Source: a bacterium (GTDB lineage: Bacteria > Coprothermobacterota > Coprothermobacteria > Coprothermobacterales > JAADFF01). Taken from it: 26,219 nucleotides of DNA. The notes beneath the pieces were generated by a model, which was not told the origin of the DNA, searched no databases, and saw only the letters and a list, made by a program, of their open reading frames with translations. Shown here one piece after another: positions 22,232 through 26,219 of this stretch (its first letter is position 1; each line of letters opens with the position of its first letter). A program made the position numbers and the translations under genes. The stretch is from positions 1 through 26,219 of the forward strand of contig JAMORD010000137.1 in assembly GCA_027063755.1 (NCBI GenBank), given 5' to 3'.

Positions 22232-22262
22232 AAAAGGAAGGGGTATTCCCCTTCCTTTTTTA
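22232..22262. terminator. Bidirectional terminator between convergent operons
   Basis: A perfect 12-bp stem (AAAAGGAAGGGG paired with its complement, 22232-22259) with a TATT loop and a T-run. The stop codon of the minus-strand gene lies at its edge. It best serves the plus strand; the minus-strand T-run is shorter. Confidence 0.88.
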
Positions 22263-22955
22263 TATCTCAATAAATCCTGCCTCTTTTAACCTAAGAAGCA
22301 CAGATAATGTTTCCCTCGTACCTATACCGGAGCGTTCTGTCAGTTGTTTAACATTCTTTTTACCATCAAGCAGTGAAAAAACAAGCCAGTCAGTAAGGCT
22401 CAGTGTGCTTCCCATTGTGTCTATCATGACATTGTCAGCCAGTATTTTGGGAACGGCATCCATTGGGATTGATTCCTTGAGAAACTTTAGCTGTTCCCTA
22501 TAACGAGGCAGTTCAAGGGCAATGGTGTCAATGGGAAACTCAATTTTTTTGGGGAAGTCATCATATGTATCAAATGATACGGCCAGTTCACCCTTTTCTG
22601 CTGTGAAGAATGTTAGCACTAAATCTTCATGGTATTTTTTTTGAGCTACGCTTCTAAGGAATGGAGTTTGTACAAACAAAGGATGGTTATTTAGTATCTT
22701 TTCATACCATATGTTATGATGTTCGATAATGTCTGGAATCTTGTTGAATGGGTCAAATTTGAATAAAGAGCCATCAGAAAGCCCACCTCTTGGTGCCCTG
22801 GCTATAAAGTGCACAACATTTTTTCTAACTGGAATGAAATAGAGAAATTCTTCATCTTGGTAAATCATGTCAAATGTATCTCTCTTTGATCGGGGAAGCG
22901 TCAATGTCAGTTCAAGAGAGATTTCATTAAGCGTTGACCTTAAAATTGGTGGCAT
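22260..22955 (-). CDS. Unknown protein with C-terminal winged-helix domain
   Basis: Last gene of the GTPase cluster. The first 160 or so residues look alpha/beta with several strand-like blocks (E-F-L-Y-F-I-P-V and H-F-I-A-R-A) and match no family I know. The final 50 residues (about 180-231; L-S-L-T-D-W-L-V-F-S-L-L-D-G-K-K then E-R-S-G and L-L-R-L-K-E-A-G-F-I) form a winged-helix pattern of the type found at the ends of PATAN/DUF4388 and DUF742 proteins. No signal peptide or transmembrane helix. ATG 22955 follows AAGGAGGGG, 14 nt after the roadblock gene. By context it is probably an effector or adaptor of the GTPase; the function is inferred only. Confidence 0.65.
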   Translation of the reverse strand: MPPILRSTLNEISLELTLTLPRSKRDTFDMIYQDEEFLYFIPVRKNVVHFIARAPRGGLSDGSLFKFDPFNKIPDIIEHHNIWYEKILNNHPLFVQTPFLRSVAQKKYHEDLVLTFFTAEKGELAVSFDTYDDFPKKIEFPIDTIALELPRYREQLKFLKESIPMDAVPKILADNVMIDTMGSTLSLTDWLVFSLLDGKKNVKQLTERSGIGTRETLSVLLRLKEAGFIEI

Positions 22956-22969
22956 AATAACCCCTCCTT

Positions 22970-23356
22970 TTATAAAAGATCACCGATGATATCGGCGATT
23001 TGCGATGCATATCTTGTTAGTATTGTAACAAGTAAACTAGTATTACTTCTTTTAGATGTGATGACTGATATAAGAACTTTGTCGTTAACTTTTCTTGTTA
23101 CAAGAATTTCTTCGGATGAATAAGTAGCAGAATATTCAAAGTCGCCTGCAAGAACTCCTTCACCTATTTGCTCAGATATGGCAAATAGCGATGACACCAT
23201 TGCTGCAAGTCTCTCTTGTAGTTCAGCATCTGGTACGGTGCTCACAAGGTGGAAACCATCAACAGTAGAGACAATGGTAGCTCTTATGCCTGTTGAGGTT
23301 AACTCAATGCGCTTTAGTATTTCTGCAATTTCAGATTTTACATTATCTGGTAGCAT
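22970..23356 (-). CDS. Roadblock/LC7 (MglB-like) domain protein
   Basis: A single roadblock/LC7 domain of 128 residues. In bacteria such proteins, like MglB of Myxococcus, dimerise and act as activators or platforms for MglA/Ras-like GTPases. Visible family features are the strand I-R-A-T-I-V-S-T-V-D-G-F-H-L-V-S, the helix L-A-A-M-V-S-S-L-F-A-I-S-E-Q-I, and the strand I-L-V-T-R-K-V-N-D-K-V-L-I-S-V-I-T. It directly follows the GTPase gene (3 nt apart; the GTPase stop sits in its GGGGAGGG ribosome binding site), so the two are probably made together. Cytoplasmic; no catalytic residues expected. Confidence 0.82.
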   Translation of the reverse strand: MLPDNVKSEIAEILKRIELTSTGIRATIVSTVDGFHLVSTVPDAELQERLAAMVSSLFAISEQIGEGVLAGDFEYSATYSSEEILVTRKVNDKVLISVITSKRSNTSLLVTILTRYASQIADIIGDLL

Positions 23357-23359
23357 GTC

Positions 23360-23911
23360 TTATCCCTCCCCAGCCTTTTCCATTTCTTCAAACCATTCAA
23401 GAACAGTCTGTGCAAGTGCTATAAGAACATCTCTTACACTTTTTTTGTCAGTTGCCACACATGGCACGATCTTAATATTTGGAGGAAGTCCCATCATATT
23501 TCTAATTTTTTCTGGAGAAATGGCTCCTTCCATGTCTTGCTTGTTAGCGGCAACAACGAATGGAACAGGGGCATAAGCGGAAAATGTGCGAATAATATCT
23601 TTGGCCTTAGCTATAGATTGTGGGTCTGTACTATCTACCATAACAATATACCCAAGCATATCTCTGCTAAGGATTTCCCACATATGTTTAAATCGTGATT
23701 GGCCAGGGGTACCAAAGAGATAGAGAATAAAATCTTCATCGAGTGTTAGTTTGCCATAGTCAATAGCAACAGTTGTTGTTTCTTTAACCTTTTCTTCTGG
23801 ATTGGTAATAGGTTGATCTGTATTGACAACACCTATCTCTGATATCGTTCGGATAAATTCTGTCTTTCCAGAGTTAAACGGGCCTGTAACGACAACTTTA
23901 ATATCGCTCAT
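23360..23911 (-). CDS. Ras-like/MglA-type small GTPase (COG2229-like)
   Basis: A small GTPase of 183 residues. G1 is G-P-F-N-S-G-K-T (10-17); G2 is E-T-T-T-V-A-I-D (44-51); G3 is F-G-T-P-G-Q (66-71), where the usual D is replaced by G67 as in COG2229-type proteins; G4 is N-K-Q-D (123-126); G5 is C-V-A-T-D. This family pairs with roadblock proteins and with DUF742 winged-helix proteins in actinobacterial conservons, and MglA sets polarity in Myxococcus and Thermus. The next gene downstream is the roadblock protein, its likely regulator. No lipidation motif is seen. ATG 23911 follows a GGGGGG run. Confidence 0.87.
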   Translation of the reverse strand: MSDIKVVVTGPFNSGKTEFIRTISEIGVVNTDQPITNPEEKVKETTTVAIDYGKLTLDEDFILYLFGTPGQSRFKHMWEILSRDMLGYIVMVDSTDPQSIAKAKDIIRTFSAYAPVPFVVAANKQDMEGAISPEKIRNMMGLPPNIKIVPCVATDKKSVRDVLIALAQTVLEWFEEMEKAGEG

Positions 23912-23923
23912 AATTGTACCCCC

Positions 23924-24733
23924 CTATAACTTCTTTTTCAGTAGGTCTATGAAACGCTGAATAATACCTTTGGAATATGGTCTTTGTTTTTTTCGCTTGT
24001 TACTCCCTTTCTTAGATTGAATAATCCCCAATTTTATTAGTTCCGTGAGTTTTGCCTTTATTTCAGCCTCATCTGTATCTGGATGGTTAGCGTGTATTTC
24101 CTTTATGATATCCTTTGCTCTTTTGGTTGATGTTTTAACCATTAAGAAGATTTGCCACGATAGGTCGTCAAGTTCAGGATGCTTTACGAGTATACTGGCA
24201 GCCATTGGAGATACTTCAAGGTAGTCATCTTCGCTGCCGACAAATCTTCTAAATTCATTTTCTTTTTGTATTCTGTTTCGTACATCGTCTAGTATCTCGG
24301 AGATGTGTGTGGGAGGGAGCTTGGTAACAACATTTTCAGGTATTTTGAAATTGGGTAGAAACATAATTTTGGCATTATTCCAACCAAGCATGGTTTTTAC
24401 CTTATCCATGATAAACTGCCTGGCTGCATACACCTCTCCTGAGTTCCGTTCAAGATATTCAGCATATTCTCTCTTAGTAGCAACATCCCATTCCCTCTGG
24501 ACAATTTTGGTGAGCATGTTTTTATCAAGGTTGCGGGCATACACGATGTATTGCGCCAGAGAATTCGGAAGTTTAGATGTTAGTGCGATGGATATCCAGC
24601 CTCCTGCTATATTAATAAGACCTGCTTGGTATGTATTGGTACGGTATATCATGATAACTGCATCGCTTTGTTTTTTCTCAAGGTATGAAAGCAAATCAAG
24701 TAAACCAATGGTGTTTGTGTCCATTTTAATCAT
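23924..24733 (-). CDS. PATAN/DUF4388-like protein with winged helix and basic tail
   Basis: A 269-residue protein. The N-terminus (about 8-110; L-L-D-L-L-S-Y-L-E-K-K, G-L-I-N-I-A-G-G-W-I-S-I-A) matches the PATAN/DUF4388 type found with response regulators and GTPases. A middle helical part follows, then a winged-helix-like segment (about 175-240). The last 30 residues are strongly basic (S-K-K-G-S-N-K-R-K-K at 240-249 and L-L-K-K-K-L at the end), a possible membrane- or nucleic-acid-binding tail. ATG 24733 follows GAGGTG, and its ATGA overlaps the stop of the upstream membrane gene. Role in the GTPase pathway inferred from context. The PATAN call is by pattern only. Confidence 0.65.
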   Translation of the reverse strand: MIKMDTNTIGLLDLLSYLEKKQSDAVIMIYRTNTYQAGLINIAGGWISIALTSKLPNSLAQYIVYARNLDKNMLTKIVQREWDVATKREYAEYLERNSGEVYAARQFIMDKVKTMLGWNNAKIMFLPNFKIPENVVTKLPPTHISEILDDVRNRIQKENEFRRFVGSEDDYLEVSPMAASILVKHPELDDLSWQIFLMVKTSTKRAKDIIKEIHANHPDTDEAEIKAKLTELIKLGIIQSKKGSNKRKKQRPYSKGIIQRFIDLLKKKL

Positions 24734-25320
24734 CGCTCAGCACCTCTAAGAGTGGTTCTTTTTTTTATAAGTGAAGCAATACCGATAAAGACAGCAGCAG
24801 TAGCAGGAACGGAAAAATGCATGTAGGTACGAAATAGTACAGTAAGAATTTCATCGGTGCCTAATGCCATATACATGATGTGGGAAAGATCAAAGTCATC
24901 TCTGGCAACGATAGGTATTAGTAGATTGGAAAATAGGAGATATATGAGGACGGTGTAAGCTTTACTGGTGAAACCGACATCCATAAGTATGTTTTTTAGT
25001 GCTATTTCCGGTGGCATAAAGTTCAGACTAATAACCATGCCTACAAATAAAAGTAGACCACCAAGAGTTGTTTTCAACATACTCCAAGGACTAAGCGTGG
25101 TAATGGGATATGCGAGAATAAAGATTTTGATTATAAGTGATACATTGAAAAATGTTTCTGTGGAGAATCCACTAAATATGTATGGTAGTTCCCAGAGGAT
25201 GACAACTACAGCATGAATGGCACCAGCAGGTATCATCCACAAACTTCCCCACAATATAAGGGCATAAGTATATAACATGCCAGTTGATAAATGACCAAAC
25301 ATATTTTGTATTCCTCTCAT
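24730..25320 (-). CDS. Unknown polytopic membrane protein
   Basis: First gene of the GTPase cluster: about five or six hydrophobic helices in 196 residues (first pair about 13-48, others near 58-80, 85-105, 120-140 and 165-190) and a basic C-terminus (K-K-R-T-T-L-R). I recognise no family. The frame extends to an ATG at 25404, but that start has no ribosome binding site and adds an ill-fitting 28 residues that overlap the divergent helicase gene. An extended -10 lies exactly 7 nt before ATG 25320, giving a leaderless transcript, so 25320 is chosen. Stop and next start overlap (ATGA). It may anchor the GTPase module to the membrane; this is inference. Confidence 0.62.
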   Translation of the reverse strand: MRGIQNMFGHLSTGMLYTYALILWGSLWMIPAGAIHAVVVILWELPYIFSGFSTETFFNVSLIIKIFILAYPITTLSPWSMLKTTLGGLLLFVGMVISLNFMPPEIALKNILMDVGFTSKAYTVLIYLLFSNLLIPIVARDDFDLSHIMYMALGTDEILTVLFRTYMHFSVPATAAVFIGIASLIKKRTTLRGAER

Positions 25321-25336
25321 GTTTGTTATTATACCA
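25318..25336 (-). promoter_or_regulatory. Extended -10 promoter, leaderless, of the GTPase cluster
   Basis: On the minus strand TGGTATAAT (25336-25328), then seven bases AACAAAC, then ATG at 25320. The expected transcript start falls on or next to the A of the ATG. A weak TTGGTT lies 16 bp upstream of the -10. No Shine-Dalgarno sequence precedes this ATG. Confidence 0.62.
25327..25332 (+). promoter_or_regulatory. Candidate -10 of the helicase gene
   Basis: TATTAT on the plus strand (five of six), lying on nearly the same bases as the opposing -10. Predicted start near 25339, directly before GGAGGG (25340-25345). The -35 is weak. Confidence 0.4.
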
Positions 25337-25356
25337 AGTGGAGGGATAAAACCAAG

Positions 25357-26219
25357 ATGATAAACAATATATTGAAAAATATTCCTGTAGACGGTATAAA
25401 GCATTTATATATTGATAACACTATTTTAGATACTGTGCCTAACGACATATACCCATCACTACATTATAGATATCTTTATGATTACCAATATGATGTTGTT
25501 AATGCTATTTTAGAGCATAATGTATTTGTTAGTGCTCCTACAGGCAGTGGGAAGACACTATCCTTTGCCCTTGCATATGCCCGTATGAGGGAGAATAGCC
25601 CCGAGGCTACTATGCTTGTTATATATCCTCGTAAGGCATTAGCAAGAGACCAAATGCTTGCCCTGAGTGATATTTTTGGTCATATTCCCCATATGGAAAC
25701 TGTTAAGATAATGGCTTATGATGGTGATGTTTCATCACTTCAGAAGAGAGAAGCATTGCTTGGAGCCGATGTTATTGTGTCTAATTTTTATGGTATACAT
25801 GTCTATTTAGCCAATCATGGTGCGTGGGCAAGGTTTTTATCAAAGCTATCTCTTGTTGTGATAGATGAAACTCATTTGTACTCTGGAGTGTTTGGCACCC
25901 ATGTTTCTTATGTTATTCGTAGGCTTAGGAGACTGGCATCGCTGTATGGGGCGGCGCCTAAGTTTCTGCTACTATCTGCTACAGTTTCAGAACCTGATAA
26001 ATCGGGTGAGCTGCTTGTTGGTTTACCGTTTGTATCTGTAGAAGTCCCTGGTTTGTCTATGTACTCTAAAGATTTATATTTTCTGACAACATCTTCTGGA
26101 AAGGAGAGACGACTCCTTATATCTCTTGTACAGCAGCTTATAGATTACGGATATAGGGGTATGGTGTTTTTTAACTCCCGTGAGGAGATGGAGCGCATTT
26201 ACTATGCTATGAAGGGGAG
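25357..26219 (+). CDS. MrfA/YprA-type DEAD/DEAH helicase, partial
   Basis: The first 287 residues of a superfamily 2 helicase cut by the window edge. Visible motifs are Q44 with nearby aromatics (Q-motif), Walker A A-P-T-G-S-G-K-T (60-67), motif Ia Y-P-R-K-A-L-A-R-D-Q (90-99), D-E-T-H (170-173), S-A-T (207-209) and the start of domain 2 (G-M-V-F-F-N-S). The block I-D-E-T-H-L-Y-S-G-V-F-G-T-H followed by I-R-R-L-R-R-L is typical of the MrfA/YprA (COG1205) group, DNA-repair helicases usually followed by a cysteine-rich C-terminal domain that lies beyond this window. ATG 25357 is 11 nt after GGAGGG, rather long but the only candidate. Confidence 0.85.
   Translation, partial: MINNILKNIPVDGIKHLYIDNTILDTVPNDIYPSLHYRYLYDYQYDVVNAILEHNVFVSAPTGSGKTLSFALAYARMRENSPEATMLVIYPRKALARDQMLALSDIFGHIPHMETVKIMAYDGDVSSLQKREALLGADVIVSNFYGIHVYLANHGAWARFLSKLSLVVIDETHLYSGVFGTHVSYVIRRLRRLASLYGAAPKFLLLSATVSEPDKSGELLVGLPFVSVEVPGLSMYSKDLYFLTTSSGKERRLLISLVQQLIDYGYRGMVFFNSREEMERIYYAMKG

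Follow-up and report, generated by a model that had tools for sequence, protein, structure and literature searches.

A predicted operon of an MglA-family GTPase, a roadblock protein, two PATAN-like HTH proteins and a small membrane protein

Five minus-strand genes at positions 22260 to 25320 of the 26,219-nucleotide stretch of DNA analysed here (the window) form a predicted operon that is under strong purifying selection and has the order membrane protein, PATAN-like protein, small GTPase, roadblock protein and HTH protein. The reading that we prefer, with somewhat more confidence than doubt, is that the set acts as a membrane-associated GTPase switch of the MglA family, built on a unit that is common in Chloroflexota, namely, the GTPase with its PATAN/DUF4388-HTH partner. 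The MglA/MglB-PATAN module as such is already known; what appears to be new, judging from the sequence comparisons, is the genus-specific membrane gene and the presence of two PATAN-HTH paralogues.

Operon layout, conservation and distribution

The positions of the genes and of the elements flanking them are given in Table 1. Genes 1 and 2 overlap by 4 nt and are followed by gaps of 12, 3 and 14 nt. The source genome (1.5 Mb in 251 contigs) has one close relative, the sister genome, in which all five genes are found in unchanged order (loci L002/L031/L056). Substitutions between the two genomes are concentrated at third codon positions, with nonsynonymous changes in 1 of 128 codons of the roadblock gene, 4 of 183 of the GTPase gene, 9 of 231 of gene 5 and 21 of 269 of gene 2; the core of the membrane gene is the most variable of the five (35 of 196).

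Table 1. Features of the five-gene operon and its flanks, in window positions
Feature	Position	Strand	Basis
Gene 1, small membrane protein, 196 aa	24730..25320 (ORF extendable to 25404)	-	
Gene 2, PATAN/DUF4388-like protein with HTH and basic C-terminal tail	23924..24733	-	
Gene 3, Ras-like small GTPase, MglA family	23360..23911	-	Pfam and motifs
Gene 4, roadblock/LC7 (MglB-like) protein	22970..23356	-	Pfam
Gene 5, second protein that looks PATAN-like, C-terminal HTH, without tail	22260..22955	-	
Putative promoter TTGGTT-17-TATAAT, between gene 1 and the divergent helicase gene	25321..25356	-	By eye
Hairpin terminator, also serving the convergent CNNM gene	22232..22259	.	

The putative promoter was spotted by eye in the alignment of the two genomes, and a scanner scored it below its threshold. 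Because the 39 nt upstream of position 25320 are nearly unchanged in the sister genome (1 base different) and the TATAAT ends 7 nt upstream of the ATG, translation of gene 1 most likely starts at 25320 rather than at 25404; its message is possibly leaderless. At the place of the terminator, the sister genome has a hairpin with another stem sequence.

The sequence-only reading had described five tightly packed genes on one strand with a membrane gene in first place and no kinase, a COG2229/MglA-type GTPase and a roadblock protein. All of this holds: the open reading frames (ORFs) are confirmed, and neither the five genes nor their two neighbours encode a kinase. It had also treated the five genes as a unit whose members should not occur apart in related genomes, which is right for the membrane gene and the full set, so far seen in just two genomes, both of the same genus, and wrong for the GTPase and PATAN-HTH pair, which is widespread without the other three genes. 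Within the phylum, the GTPase, the roadblock protein, gene 5 and the membrane gene are present in two of nine genomes, those of the window and the sister. A search of the phylum for an empty insertion site found the CNNM gene in most genomes, with no shared neighbours and no clean empty site.

The gene 1 product has about five hydrophobic segments and a basic C-terminal end (KKRTTLRGAER), and it matches no Pfam or NCBIfam family. No homologue outside the genus was found among 290 genomes spread over bacteria, and none that is credible among 350 genomes of the phylum of genome G067, where the best E value was 0.012 and the matches were short or lay inside longer frames.

Three other loci (L063, L067 and L072) encode two small membrane proteins directly upstream of a DUF4388-GTPase pair. 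These genes differ from gene 1, yet occupy its position, and the one tested (L067:3720-4286) matches DUF5698 and DUF2179.

The GTPase, its relatives and the roadblock protein

The gene 3 product scores over the Pfam cut-off and carries the motifs GPFNSGKT (G1), TTT within ETTT (G2), GTPGQ within FGTPGQ (G3), NKQD (G4) and, at G5, CVATD. MglA groups 2 to 5 are described as having GTPGQ in G3 and a Thr replacing the intrinsic Arg finger in G2 (PMC4316618); FGTPGQ and ETTT are present both in this GTPase and in its relatives, in agreement with membership in these groups. Group 2, the MglA proteins of conservons, has NxFD as the G4 and DAR as the G5 box, and some group 1 and group 5 genes lie near PATAN genes (PMC4316618). 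The canonical [NT]KxD form of G4 and an occasional PATAN neighbour mark group 5, and here G4 is NKQD and a PATAN-like gene lies 12 nt upstream. The GTPase is therefore probably a member of group 5, and not of group 2, a placement made by motif rather than by tree. Compared with the MglA group 5/MglB systems described by Wuichet and Sogaard-Andersen (2014; PMC4316618), the window has a pair of PATAN-HTH proteins and a membrane gene of its own in a single operon.

When 84,980 species genomes were scanned for the GTPase, 80 loci were kept: the sister and 79 Chloroflexota proteins, the latter being the nearest relatives with 52-60% identity. In a tree, the two sequences of the window genus fall next to the sampled Chloroflexota sequences and not among them; their stem is long and the support is rough. 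On this basis a recent transfer of the GTPase from Anaerolineae was rejected. Recoding of TAG in the GTPase matches at L003 and L004 was also rejected, the TAG sitting at the gene edge.

The gene 4 product matches Robl_LC7 (E 4e-7, 30 bits against a Pfam cut-off of 23). It keeps the Asp-Gly pair of groups 2 to 5, its VDG aligning with the Chloroflexota roadblocks, and is encoded by the only roadblock gene found in the source genome; by sequence it is a probable regulator of the GTPase. Six Chloroflexota loci have a roadblock gene in the vicinity of this GTPase, and related roadblocks, with about 20% identity, occur in 66 of the 350 genomes of the phylum of G067. At loci L069, L079, L080, L083 and L133, a roadblock gene is found near a V4R-type protein close to the DUF4388-GTPase pair, some of them with a response regulator as well.

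The PATAN-like HTH proteins

Of 79 loci with an annotated GTPase, 76 (75 of them Chloroflexota) have an ORF on its strand as the next gene upstream; two of the three exceptions start at a contig end, and the third has a small opposite-strand ORF in between. The three upstream partners tested reach DUF4388 at E values of 5e-24 to 8e-29. The Chloroflexota partners have in common DUF4388, an HTH and, at the C-terminus, a tail resembling SLVNRLIxRIRSL. A tail pattern composed after inspection of the partner sequences is matched by 74 of the 75 Chloroflexota partners.

The gene 2 product has an HTH at about residues 175-243 and a basic C-terminal tail (SKGIIQRFIDLLKKKL). It matches neither PF14332 (DUF4388) nor any other Pfam family over the cut-off. 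An hhalign comparison with the DUF4388-HTH family gives a weak but co-linear alignment that takes in the tail (E 0.006 with a probability of 6%, against E 0.18 for the reversed control). This alignment, the gene position, the tail and the structure model together indicate that gene 2 is the counterpart of the Chloroflexota DUF4388-HTH protein. The DUF4388-HTH and GTPase pairs of Chloroflexota (Anaerolineae) resemble the window genes in the close GTPase, the PATAN-HTH gene directly upstream and the equally placed tail, whereas they are without the membrane gene and the second PATAN-HTH protein and have a roadblock gene adjacent or near in few loci.

Residues 242-269 of gene 2, after the HTH, carry a net charge of +10. 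In the tail, helical amphipathicity is highest at about 100 degrees but not significant (permutation p 0.07), so that binding of the tail to the membrane is only a guess.

The source genome encodes a second, clear DUF4388 protein of 349 aa with a long C-terminal extension (L191, G000:C159:1667-2716), whose gene neighbours are serS and a gene for an SRP-type GTPase. Similar DUF4388 proteins are found in other genomes of the phylum, with two in tandem in L140.

Gene 5 likewise has no match to PF14332 or to any Pfam family over the cut-off. Its residues 88-231 align with the DUF4388-HTH family by hhalign (E 1.5e-7; reversed control, 0.37), and a direct hhalign comparison of genes 2 and 5, with two sequences each, gives no signal. 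The structure models of genes 2 and 5 (pLDDT 77 and 79, pTM 0.63 and 0.75) both contain a PATAN core (strands, helical insert, further strand and long helix) plus an HTH; the alignment behind them was that of the Chloroflexota family, a choice that may bias the fold in favour of PATAN, chiefly in residues 1-87 of gene 5. Judging from its model, this N-terminal region of gene 5 looks PATAN-like.

The PATAN helical insert (profile A3 positions 48-109) weakly matches PilB in its N-terminal part (E 0.1-0.18), which may reflect a shared motif.

The sequence-only reading had placed a PATAN-like protein second in the operon and seen related winged-helix segments at the ends of two proteins. The first point is sustained by the evidence given for gene 2, the Pfam model not being reached, and the second by the alignment of both HTH ends with the DUF4388-HTH family. 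As a correction, the N-terminus of gene 5 is not unrelated to gene 2, since both proteins look PATAN-like, and the wing of the HTH is complete in neither protein. The gene 5 HTH comprises residues 161-231, and the protein stops right after the first wing strand; in the relatives of gene 2, the HTH runs on into a proline-rich linker. Both HTHs are near neutral in charge, that of gene 5 having a net charge of -2 and a neutral recognition helix, against an average of +2 for the Chloroflexota HTHs.

The best eight entries of a fold comparison with gene 5 are all NPRL2/NPRL3 (Npr2/Npr3) proteins of GATOR1 or SEA, with Z scores of 9.4-10.9 and 1.6-2.0 A over 68-71 residues, followed by entries at Z <=8.0. 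The likeness is to the HTH only, the N-terminal domain of gene 5 being barely covered by the fold search. For gene 2, NPRL2 ties with unrelated HTH proteins at Z of about 7. With Foldseek, neither the gene 2 nor the gene 5 model has a match at an E value of 0.001 or lower, and a sequence search of PDB chains gives no NPRL2/3 match. Since one common domain type is concerned and no sequence link was found, the NPRL2/3 likeness is a lead only. Because the HTHs are without a complete wing and that of gene 5 fits NPRL2/NPRL3 best, they are predicted to bind protein likelier than DNA.

These observations bear on a transcriptional switch, in which the PATAN-HTH proteins would bind DNA and the state of the GTPase would set their retention at the membrane or release to promoters. 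The HTH segments do show weak matches to MarR/TrmB-type HTH families and the region after the gene 2 HTH is strongly basic, a DNA-binding complex has been hypothesised for CvnC8/CvnD8 (PMC8510531), and an HTH output has been proposed for the partners of group 3 MglA proteins (PMC4316618). However, the incomplete wings, the charge of the gene 5 HTH with its neutral recognition helix and the best fold matches being NPRL2/NPRL3, not DNA-bound regulators, speak against it, and we consider a transcriptional switch unlikely, if still a serious competitor.

Proposed mechanism and remaining alternatives

In the membrane-associated switch that we prefer, the membrane protein would receive an input and relay it to the gene 2 product; the basic tail of this product would rest on the membrane or bind the GTPase. 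A dimer of the roadblock protein would make the GTPase turn over its nucleotide faster. The PATAN-HTH paralogues would serve as scaffold and effector, with their HTHs as protein-binding modules. By analogy, the switch may act on type IV pilus activity: PATAN response regulators act on PilB in cyanobacteria, where PixE binds PilB1 (PMC7690835), and the source genome carries pilB, pilT and pilC genes, which together make pili a candidate output. As T2SSE-family ATPases (pilus/secretion type) are found in nine of nine genomes of the phylum and the module in two, pili are not the obvious target.

Another explanation is a prokaryotic polarity module of the MglA/MglB kind, in which the PATAN proteins would position type IV pili at a cell pole. 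MglA and MglB set polarity elsewhere (PMC4316618), and the binding of PATAN response regulators to PilB1, the three pil genes and the weak contact of the PATAN family profile with the PilB N-terminus agree with such a role, but the module is not linked to pilus genes in the loci inspected, and relatives without it have T2SSE-family ATPases too. We hold this explanation to be improbable as well, and as worth keeping in view as the transcriptional one.

The GATOR1 complex, which contains NPRL2 and NPRL3, acts on Rag GTPases, and the Rag-Ragulator system likewise combines small GTPases with roadblock partners. In a bacterial counterpart of Rag-Ragulator-GATOR1, the PATAN-HTH paralogues would form a membrane-tethered heterodimeric regulator of the GTPase, with an HTH sharing ancestry with that of NPRL2/NPRL3. 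The likeness is, however, limited to about 70 residues of one domain, and NPRL2 and NPRL3 are longin-HTH proteins (PMC3521125), starting with a longin domain. We regard such a counterpart as very doubtful.

Kinship with the conservons (CvnABCD), which the sequence-only reading had suggested and for which the equal list of parts speaks (a roadblock, an HTH protein, a small GTPase and a membrane component), would make the operon a conservon minus its kinase plus a membrane protein, and is hardly credible given that it is without the histidine-kinase-like CvnA, that NKQD and CVATD differ from the group 2 G4 and G5 boxes (PMC4316618), that DUF742 is not matched by genes 2 and 5 even with E values of up to 1 and that the closest GTPases come from Chloroflexota, where they are paired with DUF4388.

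Most MglA GTPases of group 5, like the PATAN proteins encoded near them, have been little characterised, and DUF4388 is hardly mentioned in the literature searched. The window brings together, in one compact operon, a full candidate set, with an input, a switch, a regulator and a pair of proteins for scaffold or effector roles, and the C-terminal tail, kept in about 75 Chloroflexota relatives, provides a concrete handle on the partner's mode of action.
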